In this document: piece by piece, positions 44,591 through 50,551 of the stretch | Layout: each line of letters starts with the position of its first letter | How positions within the stretch are numbered: the stretch's first letter is position 1 | From: Halorubrum sp. GN11_10-6_MGM | Lineage (GTDB): Archaea; Halobacteriota; Halobacteria; Halobacteriales; Haloferacaceae | Assembly: GCF_005435165.1 (NCBI RefSeq) | Contig: NZ_SGUC01000003.1 | Coordinates: 1 to 64,000 of the forward strand | Reading direction: 5' to 3' | DNA length: 64,000 bases | Notes under the pieces: model-generated | Databases searched by the model: none | Told to the model about the DNA's origin: nothing | What the model saw: only the letters and a program-made list of their open reading frames with translations | Made by a program: the position numbers and the translations under genes

Positions 44591-44747
44591 GTCCGTCGGA
44601 TCGGACCGGCCCGGACAGCGCGAACCGGCTCGAACTCCTCCGTCGATCTTCTCGGACTCGAACGTGCGGCCCCTCCCCGTCAGACGAGTATCAATCCGAA
44701 TAATCTGACTCCGAGACTTATGTACCCCTGCCGGCGAGTGGCGACAG

Positions 44748-47249
44748 ATGAACGGCGACGACGCACGTGACCGGTCCGATCGGGATTCCGGCGACGGGGA
44801 CCGCTCGACGGTATCGACCGACTCGAACGCCACCACCGACGGCGGGGTCGAGTCCGGCGAGACGACGGCCGCCTCGCGCGCCGCTTCCGACGACGAGATC
44901 CCGGTCTCGGAGTTCCGCGAGGTCGCGGCCCGGCTCGCCGACGGCGACCTCGGGGCCCGGTTCCCGACCGAGGGGGCCGACGGCGATGCGGCGGCGCTCG
45001 CGGCGACGCTCAACGAGTTCGTCGACGGCGTCGCGGAGACGGTGTCCGCGGTCGACGGCTTCGGCGACGAGGTCGCGGGCGCGACCGAACACGTCCGGTC
45101 GAACGTCGACCGCGCGAAGGCGCAGAGCGACGAGGTGTACGCCGCGGTCGACGACATCGAGGCGGCGGCGACCCGCCAGCGCGACGACATCGCGGCCGCG
45201 ACGAGCGAACTCCAGACCGTCTCGGCGGCCACCGAGGAGGTCGCCGCCTCCGCCGATCAGGTGGCCGCCACCGCGGCCGACGTCGCCGAGCGGACCGACG
45301 AGGGGACCGACGCCGCGACCGCCGCGATCGAGGAGCTCCGCGTCGTCGACGAGCGGACGGAGACCGCCCTCGACCGCGTCGAGACGCTCGAATCCGAGGT
45401 CGCGGCGATCGAGGACGTCACCGACCTGATTCAGGACATCGCCGACGAGACGAACATCCTCGCCCTGAACGCGTCGATCGAGGCGGCCCGCGCCGGGGAG
45501 GCGGGGGCCGGCTTCGAGGTGGTCGCCGAGGAGGTCAAGAGCCTCGCGGAGGAGGCGCGGGACGCGACCAGCGAGATCGAGTCGTCGATCCGCTCGGTGC
45601 GCGAGGAGACGGACGCGACCGTCGACGAGATGGCCGAGATGCGCGAGCGCGCCGACGAGGGGATTACCACTGCCGAGGAGGCGCTGGAGGCGTTCACGGA
45701 CCTCGCCGCGGACGTCGAGGAGACGACGAGCGGGGTCGAGGAGATCCGCGACGCCACCGACGACCAGGCGACCTCGATCGAGGCGGTCGTCGACGCGGTC
45801 GAGTCGGTCGGTGACCTCGCCGAGGAGACGGCCGCGGACGCGGGGGACGCAACCGCGGTCGCGCACGCGCAGAAGACGTCGCTGACCGAGGTGGCCGCCG
45901 GCGCGTCGACGCTCGCCGACCGGACCGGAACGCTGGACGACGCGCTCGACGCGTACGACGCCGACGCGACCGACGACGACGACGCCGTCGTCCTCGACTT
46001 CTGGCACGCGTTCGGCGGGCGCAAAGCGCGGCTGCTCGACGAGTTCGCGGCCGAGTTCGCCGCCGAGACCGACGGGATCGCGGTCCGCCCCGCCTCGAAG
46101 GGGAGCTACCGCGGCGTGTTCGAGGCGACGCTCGCGGCGGCCGACAGGGGCGACCCGCCGGCGATCGCGCACCTCTACGAGATCGGGACGCAGCGCGCAC
46201 TCGACAGCGGCGCGTTCACGCCGGTCGAGCGCCTCCTCGGCCGCGACGCCGGTGGCGTCGGCGGCTCCGGCGGCCCGGGGTCCGGCTTCTCCCCCGACGA
46301 CCTGCTCGGCCCCGTGGCGAACTACTACCGGACCGACGGCGTCCTCCACTCGATGCCGTTCAACGCGTCGACGCCCGTGCTGTACTACGACCGCGCGGCG
46401 TTCGAGCGCGCCGGGTTAGACCCCGACGACCCGCCCGAGACGTTCGACGAGGTCCGCCGCTGCGCCGAGCGGCTCGTCGAGAGCGGCGCGACCGAGACGG
46501 GGATCACCTTCGCCACCTACTCGTGGTTCGTCGAACAGTGGTTCGCCGAGGCCGGCGAGCCGCTCGTCGACGCCGACAACGGGCGGGGCGGCACGCCGAC
46601 CGAGAGCCGCTTCGACGGGCCGGTCGCCGAGCGGATCTACCGCTGGATCGCCGACATGGCGGCCGACGGCCTCTACCACGACCCCGGAATCGAGGCCCGC
46701 GGACAGGCCCGCGAGGCGTTCCACGACGGGCGCGCCGGGATGCTGATCGGGTCGACGTCTTCGATGGTCGGCGTTCGGGAGGGGGCCTCGTTCCCGGTCG
46801 GCGTCGGCTACTTCCCGGTCGCCGACGAGCGCCACGGCGTCGTCGTCGGCGGCGGGTCGTTGTGGGTCGCGGACGGCGCGTCGACCGCCGAGCAGCGCGC
46901 CGCGGCGGCGTTCCTCGGCTGGCTCGCGGCCCCCGAGCGGCAGGCGCGCTGGCACCGCGAGACCGGCTACTTCCCGGTCCACGAGGGCGCGGTCGACCGG
47001 CTCGACCGCGACGGGTGGTTCGACGAGAACCCCGGCTACCGCACCGCCGTGAACCAGCTCCTCGACGCGGAGGACGACGCCGCCACGACCGGCGCGCGGA
47101 TCGGCCCGTTCGACACGGTCCGGACGCTCGTCGCTGAAGCGTCGGTCGACGCCCGCGAACACGGGGTCGACGACGCGCTCGACCGGCTCGCCGACAGCAC
47201 CGCGCTCCAGCTGGAACGCTACGCCGAGGAGCGCGCCGACCGACCGTAG
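44748..47249 (+). CDS. Soluble chemoreceptor signalling domain fused to a sugar-type solute-binding protein
   Basis: The 833-residue protein joins two parts that are normally separate. Residues about 50-100 look like a HAMP-type piece. Residues about 105-400 form the long coiled coil of a methyl-accepting chemotaxis protein, with the CheA/CheW-binding tip [19 protein letters not shown] and [20 protein letters not shown] (230-270). Residues 414-833 are a type-1 extracellular solute-binding protein fold (UgpB/MalE-like): [55 protein letters not shown]. There is no signal peptide, Tat motif or membrane helix, so it should work in the cytosol. No other transport or taxis gene is adjacent. Confidence 0.88.
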
Positions 47250-47966: not shown

Positions 47967-49025
47967 TCAGCCGTCGAGGCCGAGCAGGTCGAACGGGTAG
48001 CCGTTGTCCAGCTCATCGGCGCGCTCGTAGACGACGCGCGCGGCCGCCACGTCTTGGATCGCGAGTCCGGTCGAGTCGAAGACGCTGACGCCGTCCACGC
48101 CGTCGGCGTCCGCCGCCGTGCCCGGCGTGCCGGGTCGGCCCGCGCGCCGACCCACGACGATCTCGCCGATCTCGCCGTAGATGTCGTCGTCGGTGAGCGT
48201 CCCCGCAGCGTACGGGACGTTGATCTCGCCGGAGTGCGTGCACTGCTCGTGGTCGTCGATGACGACCGTGGCGTCGAGCAGCAGGTCGTCCGCCAGCTCG
48301 TGTTTCCCCGCCGCGTCCGCGCCCATCGCGTTGATATGCGTGTGCTCGCCCACGTTGTCGGGGCCGACGATCGGGTCCTCGACCGGCGTCACCGTCGAGA
48401 GCACGTCGCAGTGACCGGCCTCCGAGACCGACCCGGAGCGCACGTCGAACCGGTCCTCGAAGGCGTCGACGAAGTCGGCGACGCGCTCCTCGTCGAGGTC
48501 GCTCACGACGACCTCCTCGATGTCGCGCACCGCCGCGATCGCCTCCAGCTGCGTGTACGACTGGACGCCCGCGCCGACGATTCCGAGCGAGCTCGCCTCC
48601 GGAACAGCGAGGTGGTCGGTCGCGACCGCCGCGGCCGCCCCGGTGCGTTTCATCGTCAGCGTCGTCCCGTCGAGGACCGCCAGCGGGAACGCCGTCTCGG
48701 GGTCCGAGTAGATCATCGTCCCCATCACCGTCGGGAGGCCGTGGTCCGCGGGGTTGTCGGTGTGGACGTTGACCCACTTGATCCCCGCCGCGTCCCAGCC
48801 GTCGCCGGTCGCGGTCTCCTCGCGCACGTCCTCCTCGCGGACGTCGAGGTACGCCGGCATCGACCGGAAGTCGCCGTTGTACTCGGGCAGGTCGATGTAC
48901 GACTTCGCCGGCATCTTGGCGTCGCCGCGCTCGTAGGCCGTGAACGCGCCGCGGACCGCGTCGATGACCCGGTCCATCTCGGCGTTCTCGTCCACGTCGT
49001 CCGCGTTGAGGAGCAGCGTCTGCAT
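47967..49025 (-). CDS. Ornithine cyclodeaminase/mu-crystallin-family dehydrogenase
   Basis: The 352-residue protein has the family fold: start MQTLLLNADDVDENAEMDRV, GGARMPAK-like KMPAKSYIDLP, KWVNVHTDNP, and the NAD-binding motif LGIVGAGVQSYTQLEAIAAV. Members deaminate ornithine or act as alanine or imine dehydrogenases, and the sequence alone does not decide. On the minus strand ACTAAATAGCGG overlaps the glycerate kinase stop about 25 bases before this ATG, so it may have its own promoter within an operon. Confidence 0.88.
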   Translation of the reverse strand: MQTLLLNADDVDENAEMDRVIDAVRGAFTAYERGDAKMPAKSYIDLPEYNGDFRSMPAYLDVREEDVREETATGDGWDAAGIKWVNVHTDNPADHGLPTVMGTMIYSDPETAFPLAVLDGTTLTMKRTGAAAAVATDHLAVPEASSLGIVGAGVQSYTQLEAIAAVRDIEEVVVSDLDEERVADFVDAFEDRFDVRSGSVSEAGHCDVLSTVTPVEDPIVGPDNVGEHTHINAMGADAAGKHELADDLLLDATVVIDDHEQCTHSGEINVPYAAGTLTDDDIYGEIGEIVVGRRAGRPGTPGTAADADGVDGVSVFDSTGLAIQDVAAARVVYERADELDNGYPFDLLGLDG

Positions 49026-49045: not shown

Positions 49046-50551
49046 CTATTTAGTTTCTTCCGAAGACGCGCCGGGGCCCGCCGAACGCCCGCCGCCTCCG
49101 TCCGGGCGGGCGTCGCGCTCGCCGCCGGCCGCGGCCTCGTCGCGGACCACGACCGCGCGCAGGTCGTTGACGTTCGTTCCGGTCGGGCCGGTCCGGAGCA
49201 GCGCGCCCGCCCGGTCGAGAACCGGATACGCGTCGTGCGCGTCGAGCGCGTTCGCCGCCGCCTCGCGGTCCAGGGGACTCCCGGCGTCGTCCCCGACGAG
49301 TCCGTCGTCGACGAGCGCCCCCGCGGCGTCCGTGGCGCCGTCGATCCCGTCGGTGTCGACGCTCGCGACGGCGACGCCCTCGCCGTCCGGCCCCGAGGCA
49401 GCGAGTTCGAGCGCGGCCGACAGCGCGAACTCCCCGTTCGGCCCGCCCTCGCCGGGATCCTCGCCGAGCGTCACCGTCACCTCGCCGGCGGAGAGGAGGA
49501 CGGCGGGCGGCGCGATCGGGTCGCCGCTCGCCCGGCACTCCTCGGCGACCGCCGCGTGGGTCTTCGCCGCCTCCCGCGCCTCGCCGCGCACCCGCGAGGA
49601 GAGCACCAGCGGCTCGTACCCCCTCGCCGCCGCGACCTCCCGGGCGGCGTCGAGGGCGGTGCGCGCGCTCGCGACGACCCGAACGTCGACGCGCTCGTCG
49701 CCGTCGAACGCGGGGTCGCCGGATTTCGGCGTCTCCGCGACGTCGCCCGCGACGCCGCGTTCGAACCGGTCCCCGACGGCGGCCGGGGCGTCGATCCCGT
49801 ACCGATCGAGGACCGCCAGCGCGTCGGCGTAGGTCGTCGAGTCGGGCGAGAGCGGCCCGCTCGCGATCACGGCCGGGTCGTCTCCCGTCACGTCGCTGAC
49901 CGCGAGGCCGAGGACGTCGGCGGGGGCGGCCGCCCGCGCCAGCAGCCCGCCCTTCACGGCCGAGAGGTGCTTGCGGACCGCGTTGATCTCCGAGATGGTC
50001 GCGCCGCTCGCCAGCAGCGCGTCGGTCGTCTCGCGGAGGTCGTCGAGCCCGACCCCATCGGTCGGCGCGGCCAGCAGCGCGCTCCCGCCGCCGGTGAGCA
50101 GCCCGATCACGAGGTCGCCCTCGCCGGCGTCGGCCGCGGCCTCGCGCACCCGTCGGGCGCTCTCGACGCCCGCCTCGCTCGGCGTCGGGTGGTCGCCGGG
50201 GAGGACCGCGACCCGCTCGGTCGCCACCGGGTCGTCGGTGACGACCGCGCCGCCGTCGATCCGGTCGCCGAGGAATCTCTCGACCGCGGCCGCGAAGTGG
50301 CCCGCCGCGTTGCCCGCGCCGACGACGAGGACGCGGTCGTACGCGTCGAGGCTCCGCGCCGTCGTCGCGCCGTCGACGCCCGTCACGGTCAGCCGGTCGC
50401 CGTCGACGGCGAGCGCGTCGCCGACGACCGCGGCCGGGTGCGCCGCCTCGATCCCCGCGACGACGCAGTCGAGCGCGAGCTCGCGGGCCGGGTCGCTCGC
50501 GTGTCGTTCCCGGTCGGCGACGGTCACGGTCGGGTCCGTCCGGTCCGACAT
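49046..50551 (-). CDS. gckA: Glycerate 2-kinase (MOFRL family)
   Basis: The 501-residue protein has the DUF4147 N-terminal domain (LVVGAGNAAGHFAAAVERFL, VTDDPVATERVAVLPGDHPT, LLTGGGSALLAAPTDGVGLD) and the C-terminal MOFRL domain (VLLSAGEVTVTLGEDPGEGG, PNGEFALSAALELA, ASVDTDGIDGATDAAGALVD). It phosphorylates glycerate to 2-phosphoglycerate for sugar or serine breakdown. The last 25 residues are an acidic, low-complexity tail. It precedes the ornithine cyclodeaminase-like gene by 20 bases. Confidence 0.9.
   Translation of the reverse strand: MSDRTDPTVTVADRERHASDPARELALDCVVAGIEAAHPAAVVGDALAVDGDRLTVTGVDGATTARSLDAYDRVLVVGAGNAAGHFAAAVERFLGDRIDGGAVVTDDPVATERVAVLPGDHPTPSEAGVESARRVREAAADAGEGDLVIGLLTGGGSALLAAPTDGVGLDDLRETTDALLASGATISEINAVRKHLSAVKGGLLARAAAPADVLGLAVSDVTGDDPAVIASGPLSPDSTTYADALAVLDRYGIDAPAAVGDRFERGVAGDVAETPKSGDPAFDGDERVDVRVVASARTALDAAREVAAARGYEPLVLSSRVRGEAREAAKTHAAVAEECRASGDPIAPPAVLLSAGEVTVTLGEDPGEGGPNGEFALSAALELAASGPDGEGVAVASVDTDGIDGATDAAGALVDDGLVGDDAGSPLDREAAANALDAHDAYPVLDRAGALLRTGPTGTNVNDLRAVVVRDEAAAGGERDARPDGGGGRSAGPGASSEETK

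Follow-up and report, generated by a model that had tools for sequence, protein, structure and literature searches.

We have found in the genome of Halorubrum sp. GN11_10-6_MGM a gene for a cytosolic chemoreceptor that carries, on the C-terminal end of its signalling rod, a sensor that by sequence and predicted fold belongs to the UgpB family. This sensor probably reads sn-glycerol-3-phosphate (G3P) or glycerol-1-phosphate (G1P), and taxis would then follow glycerol metabolism. The evidence points strongly to G3P or G1P as the ligand and more weakly to the behaviour. The gene lies in the stretch of 64,000 nucleotides that was analysed (hereafter the window).

The open reading frame is uninterrupted over 833 codons, and its translation places a signalling rod with an intact CheA/CheW tip before a complete type-1 solute-binding protein. 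A preliminary description of the DNA had proposed this composition, a coiled-coil receptor with an intact tip and a complete binding protein in one 833-residue chain, and the reading frame, the Pfam matches and the invariant core of the tip agree with it. More specifically, a weak HAMP-like segment is followed by a long helical rod, which carries the MCP signalling domain, and a linker leads to the binding domain. The features are:

44718..44724, plus strand: TATA-like element TTATGTA, about 24 nt before the ATG, a putative promoter element (sequence; upstream regions of 12 Halorubrum loci)
44748..47249, plus strand: fusion gene, chemoreceptor signalling rod plus UgpB-type solute-binding protein, 833 aa (reading frame and translation; Pfam, NCBIfam and PDB matches; same join in 55 non-identical loci)
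44901..45029, plus strand: weak HAMP-like segment, residues 52-94 (Pfam HAMP, E 6e-4, 20.5 bits, below the gathering score of 25 bits)
45309..45815, plus strand: MCP signalling domain, residues 188-356 (Pfam MCPsignal, 1.4e-37; whole-genome search)
45435..45533, plus strand: hairpin tip (residues 230-262), the region of contact with CheA/CheW (alignment of 14 fusions, in which the core shows little or no variation)
45888..45986, plus strand: linker from the rod to the binding domain, residues 381-413, poorly modelled (pLDDT <50 at 381-411)
45987..47222, plus strand: UgpB-type solute-binding domain, residues 414-825 (NCBIfam UgpB, 5.5e-69; PDB 4aq4, 5.5e-60; model pLDDT 93, Z 53.2 and rmsd 1.4 A to 6x84)

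The MCPsignal score of 129.6 bits is far above the Pfam cut-off of 34.6. A full-length model of the fusion (pLDDT 64.8, pTM 0.41), in which residues 1-51 are poorly modelled, is too weak for placing the binding domain on the rod. The ATG start is supported by the TATA-like box about 24 nt upstream, since this box is conserved in Halorubrum, where it reads TTATATA in most of the relatives among the 12 loci. Its position suggests that the fusion gene has its own promoter and a leaderless transcript. In the window genome the gene is found between rlmE- and DHFR-type genes. Downstream of the receptor, the window also holds a gene of the ornithine-cyclodeaminase/mu-crystallin family (47967-49025) and one of the glycerate-2-kinase type (DUF4147/MOFRL; 49046-50551), the family being confirmed in both cases on the L092 orthologue.

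The fusion is widespread in the haloarchaea. Homologues were searched for in 59 related genomes and then in 391 genomes of the class; the same order of MCP and solute-binding protein occurs in about 69 of the 391, counting long open frames and contig-cut copies, and both halves were verified in one frame at 55 non-identical loci in three families (f1, f4 and f7). The arrangement seen in the window is thus indeed shared by other haloarchaea. Among the carriers are Halorubrum xinjiangense, Haloarcula argentinensis, Haloarcula rara, Haloferax mucosum, Haloferax larsenii, Halohasta salina, Halonotius pteroides and Halobiforma nitratireducens. Most of the Halorubrum relatives share 75-97% identity with the window fusion. 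In a maximum likelihood tree of the binding domain, a 100/100 branch separates all 55 fusions from 29 standalone haloarchaeal proteins. As judged from the binding-domain sequences, the fusion arose once in haloarchaeal history. A quick tree of the rod is compatible with one origin and is no proof of it: once a spurious outgroup row (M_L198_7) is left out, a branch with SH-aLRT 97 has all 13 other MCPs together on the same side. A standalone UgpB relative is absent from the window genome at E <= 1e-40, and in a plasmid search no record reached 80% coverage of the query, the matches listed being standalone binding proteins.

It had been considered before that a frameshift or an assembly error at about 45960-45990 might have joined two neighbouring genes. 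Errors or decay do happen, as the frameshift-split gene of Halorubrum distributum (L016) illustrates, but the identical in-frame join recurs at 55 non-identical loci in three families, many of them in genomes of one to three contigs, and the fusion binding domains form one clade. These two observations rule out a joining artefact for all practical purposes. In Halorubrum distributum JCM 10118 (L016, G016:C40:2997-5517; L120) the frameshift falls near residue 233, shortly ahead of the hairpin tip, and represents either decay or a sequencing error. A frame of 2402 codons that seemed to unite glycerol kinase and the fusion (L124:597-4529) was rejected as false; it spans a 3.9 kb run of N in a scaffold of an uncultured archaeon.

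The fusion is a cytosolic receptor that has lost its export signals. A scan of the N-terminus of the window protein revealed neither a lipobox nor an RR pair, and the protein has no signal peptide or membrane helix, its highest 19-residue hydropathy being 0.95; the earlier reading that signal peptide, Tat motif, lipobox and membrane helix are all missing was therefore correct. An RR motif and a lipobox are found in most of the 29 standalone haloarchaeal relatives and not in the fusions. The lack of a membrane helix is not universal among the fusions, because one subclade (L058/L064, L065, L068, L071, L074 and L078) has an N-terminal hydrophobic segment. Its single hydrophobic stretch may form a hairpin membrane anchor with both ends inside, in which case the rod and the binding domain still face the cytosol.

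The binding domain was initially labelled as sugar-type. It is a solute-binding protein, as stated, but both sequence and fold assign it to the UgpB, that is glycerol-phosphate, type. The best NCBIfam match is UgpB (residues 414-825, 5.5e-69, under the equivalog cut-off of that model), Pfam matched SBP_bac_8 at residues 433-763 (4.9e-36), and phmmer matched PDB entry 4aq4 at 5.5e-60; the closest solved structures by sequence are the UgpB proteins of E. coli and Phaeobacter. A model of the binding domain only, built from 37 sequences, reached a pLDDT of 93 and a pTM of 0.91. Upon alignment with E. coli UgpB (6x84) this model scored Z 53.2 with an rmsd of 1.4 A over 404 residues, followed by the substrate-bound E. 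coli protein (4aq4, Z 49.1) and UgpB with G1P (9lff, Z 48.8), whereas Mtb UgpB (Z ~41) and the best sugar binders scored about 40 or less. Generic sugar binding was dropped as the best reading, since UgpB ranks above the sugar binders in sequence as well as in fold.

The predicted specificity is reflected in the pocket. Nine residues hold G1P or G3P in the crystal structure of Phaeobacter UgpB, and G1P also binds UgpB-type pockets in vitro (PMC12718374). In our alignment eight of the nine match and are invariant in all 55 fusions, including the phosphate ligands Tyr, Ser, Ser and Tyr and the glycerol-hydroxyl ligands Glu, Gly and Arg. The positions in the window protein are:

46107..46109, plus strand: Tyr454, phosphate ligand, equivalent to Phaeobacter UgpB Tyr64 (alignment; PMC12718374)
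46179..46181, plus strand: Glu478, glycerol hydroxyl ligand, equivalent to Phaeobacter Glu88 (alignment; PMC12718374)
46368..46370, plus strand: Ser541, phosphate ligand, equivalent to Phaeobacter Ser143 (alignment; PMC12718374)
46515..46517, plus strand: Thr590, in place of the first clamp Trp (Phaeobacter Trp188; E. coli Trp169) (alignment)
46524..46526, plus strand: Trp593, second clamp Trp, equivalent to Phaeobacter Trp191 (alignment; PMC12718374)
46698..46700, plus strand: Arg651, with a putative role in ligand binding (alignment)
46752..46754, plus strand: Ser669, phosphate ligand, equivalent to Phaeobacter Ser266 (alignment; PMC12718374)
46851..46853, plus strand: Gly702, glycerol hydroxyl ligand, equivalent to Phaeobacter Gly303 (alignment; PMC12718374)
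46968..46970, plus strand: Tyr741, phosphate ligand, equivalent to Phaeobacter Tyr342 (alignment; PMC12718374)
47121..47123, plus strand: Arg792, glycerol hydroxyl ligand, equivalent to Phaeobacter Arg393 (alignment; PMC12718374)

At the position of the first clamp Trp, 40 of the 55 fusions have Asn and 15 have Thr, and Asn is present in all 29 exported haloarchaeal relatives. In E. coli this residue (Trp169) is called essential for G3P in the literature. Residue 651 is prominent among the positions that divide the two groups: it is Arg in 55 of 55 fusions and Trp in 29 of 29 exported relatives, and the bacterial G3P binders have Arg (Phaeobacter) or Lys (E. coli). In addition, many exported relatives have lost the equivalent of Glu88 or Arg393.

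The genomic context provides a second link to glycerol. Neighbourhoods were taken from codon-position-filtered gene calls in the 8-14 kb fetched for each locus, and glpK was found within that distance in 16 of the 28 non-Halorubrum fusion genomes, representing seven genera; we estimate the chance of encountering glpK in a given 13 kb of a 3.5 Mb genome at about 0.4%. In genomes of the Haloarcula type the fusion is situated between a divergent glpABC and a co-directional set of genes for GlpK, a membrane protein and an AAA protein, with a spacing of about 70-210 nt between fusion and glpK. In the Halohasta and Halonotius types the order is glpK, membrane protein and AAA protein, then the fusion, then HPr, sometimes with genes for EI and DhaKLM near. 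Curated models confirmed the neighbours GlpK (5.8e-218), GlpA (1.5e-236), GlpB (1.7e-227) and GlpC (7.2e-180), and likewise HPr, DhaL, DhaM and EI. The AAA protein in many haloarchaeal glpK operons is of the Orc1/Cdc6 type (TIGR02928, 3.6e-27, below cut-off), with examples at L067:1765-2937, L068:8024-9190 and L213:1526-2647, the last apparently from the window genome.

The fusion is not beside glp genes in the window genome or at any Halorubrum locus examined, and no glp adjacency was seen in the Natrialbaceae or at several Haloarculaceae and Haloferax loci. The lineages with linkage occur at scattered places in the fusion tree, which makes it probable that the linkage to glpK is ancestral, with losses in Halorubrum and in f7 (Natrialbaceae-type). 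Both glpK and glpA are present in the window genome, where one locus (L213) reads glpK, membrane protein, AAA protein, HAD phosphatase, which is the Halonotius order minus the receptor and HPr. The mere co-occurrence of fusion and glpK is uninformative, because 340 of the 391 genomes of the class have glpK. Genes for the transporter components UgpA, UgpE and UgpC do not adjoin the window fusion; importer genes flank the standalone relatives only, and these exported proteins have genes for permeases and ATPases next to them, often together with one for a GDPD phosphodiesterase. Two loci of f7 (L114 and L115) hold exported UgpB relatives without adjacent permease genes, beside a gene of the size found in the ornithine-cyclodeaminase cluster.

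The output side is available in the window genome. Genes for CheW and CheA are present, the CheW-domain matches being located at G000:C124 and a cluster of che genes in L214, and there are one che locus and seven other MCP genes. A putative membrane MCP frame (G000:C124) is directly preceded by a gene for a putative Tat/lipobox-like exported protein with an AGC motif (L206:1198-2346), and this pair appears to be a classical BasB/BasT-like arrangement in the same genome.

Taken as a mechanism, glycerol would enter the cell and be phosphorylated by glycerol kinase to G3P, upon which, or upon G1P, the two lobes of the binding domain would close. Closure would strain the rod at its end beside the HAMP-like segment, and the strained rod would change CheA activity at the tip and thereby the switching of the archaellum. 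The cell would in this manner track the internal product of glycerol use, not the external glycerol. Internal glycerol is converted to G3P by glycerol kinase, and this G3P is consumed by G3P dehydrogenase (PMC12366361). The earlier suggestion of a receptor for an internal sugar or metabolite pool is supported in so far as the pool would be internal; instead of a sugar the most likely ligand is G3P, in view of UgpB as the closest relative and of the frequent position of the gene in the glycerol operon.

Because the first clamp Trp is missing, a phosphodiester is the main rival ligand. The same cytosolic receptor would then bind a larger molecule, such as a lipid-derived head group or a glycerophosphodiester, and report lipid turnover or uptake. 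Mtb UgpB, which has Leu at the clamp position, binds glycerophosphocholine and not G3P (PMC7034087), and the Asn or Thr of the fusions at residue 590 has its counterpart in the Asn of all 29 exported relatives, which reside in importer operons that in several cases include a gene for a GDPD phosphodiesterase. However, unlike these relatives the fusion is linked to glpK and glpABC and not to GDPD and permeases, it has Arg651 where they have Trp, and in fold it resembles the G3P-binding UgpB (Z 53) more closely than Mtb UgpB (Z 41). We therefore consider a diester ligand unlikely, while giving it more weight than any other alternative.

Two further explanations concern the function of the domain and of the receptor. 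The preliminary description mentioned a fold re-used for protein contacts, that is, a module without ligand function that docks, for example, glycerol kinase, a permease or other receptors. The fold of a binding protein can be put to a new use, and this domain has left its transporter, but a ligand cleft would not be expected to persist in such a module, whereas eight of the nine ligand residues never vary among the 55 fusions, some of which share as little as about 50% identity, and two of them vary in the exported relatives; a pure contact function is accordingly quite improbable. Hardly more probable is a receptor that does bind glycerol phosphate and has an output other than swimming, either through CheA signalling to gene expression or by direct gating of glycerol enzymes. 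The position in an operon with glycerol enzymes would suit such a role, the conserved Orc1/Cdc6-like AAA protein of the same operons could be a partner, and cytosolic receptors of Halobacterium bound CheW2 more than CheW1 (PMC3579733). Against it, the CheA/CheW tip residues are intact and one che locus is present along with the seven other MCP genes. We thus retain the reading of a chemotaxis receptor for G3P or G1P.

Receptors in the cytosol have been reported already, and so have archaeal receptors with SBP_bac sensor domains. The receptor Car (Htr11) of Halobacterium salinarum has, to our knowledge, no solute-binding-protein domain. Car is a cytoplasmic arginine receptor for which an internal nutrient acts as attractant (PMC3579733). 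Like Car, the window protein is a haloarchaeal receptor without membrane helices that would read an internal nutrient; in contrast to the arginine sensor of Car, it has a UgpB-type domain, with glycerol-gene linkage in its relatives. In BasT/BasB and CosT/CosB, too, a haloarchaeal receptor senses its ligand through a solute-binding protein, but there it is a separate, putative periplasmic-type protein that acts with a membrane transducer (PMC3579733, citing Kokoeva 2002), whereas here it is covalently attached and cytosolic. The general statement that known taxis systems combine an external binding protein with a membrane receptor applies to these two pairs and is incomplete in view of Car and of the archaeal census (PMC3579733, PMC9680633). 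The accessible text of the census lists Class V cytoplasmic receptors with a C-terminal sensor and includes SBP_bac among the sensor domains, but contains no analysis of subtype, ligand, operon or single origin for the SBP_bac receptors (PMC9680633).

The UgpB protein of the UgpBAEC importer (4aq4, 6x84, 9lff; PMC12718374) shares the fold (Z 49-53) and eight of the nine ligand residues; the window protein differs in having no export signal or permease partners, in the replacement of the first clamp Trp and in being joined to a receptor rod. Chemoreceptors for G3P and other C3 phosphates are known in the sCache_PC3 receptors, such as PacP, which have a periplasmic sCache sensor, occur in plant-associated bacteria and detect external G3P (PMC12395807); the window sensor is of the SBP_bac_8/UgpB type, and the Pfam and NCBIfam scans found no Cache domain in the protein. 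A search of the open-access literature gave us no account of a cytosolic UgpB-type receptor, its linkage to glycerol operons or its pocket, nor of any haloarchaeal receptor for glycerol.

In a wider sense, the binding protein of an importer would have been captured once, internalised and wired to swimming, yielding a gauge of internal G3P, and possibly also of the archaeal lipid precursor G1P, and thus a directly ligand-gated metabolic taxis; to this full scenario we give an even chance. Tat-exported binding proteins fold before export, and for that reason the haloarchaea are a natural place for the cytosolic capture of a binding protein. Haloarchaea favour glycerol as a carbon source, and Haloferax volcanii prefers it over glucose (PMC12366361). 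If our reading is true, the cell would rate its surroundings by directly binding the internal product of glycerol use, and not by the outside concentration or by a general energy signal. Metabolism-dependent taxis would then be testable with one protein and one ligand in a genetically tractable host, and the receptor would demonstrate that importer binding proteins can be relocated to the cytosol as sensors.
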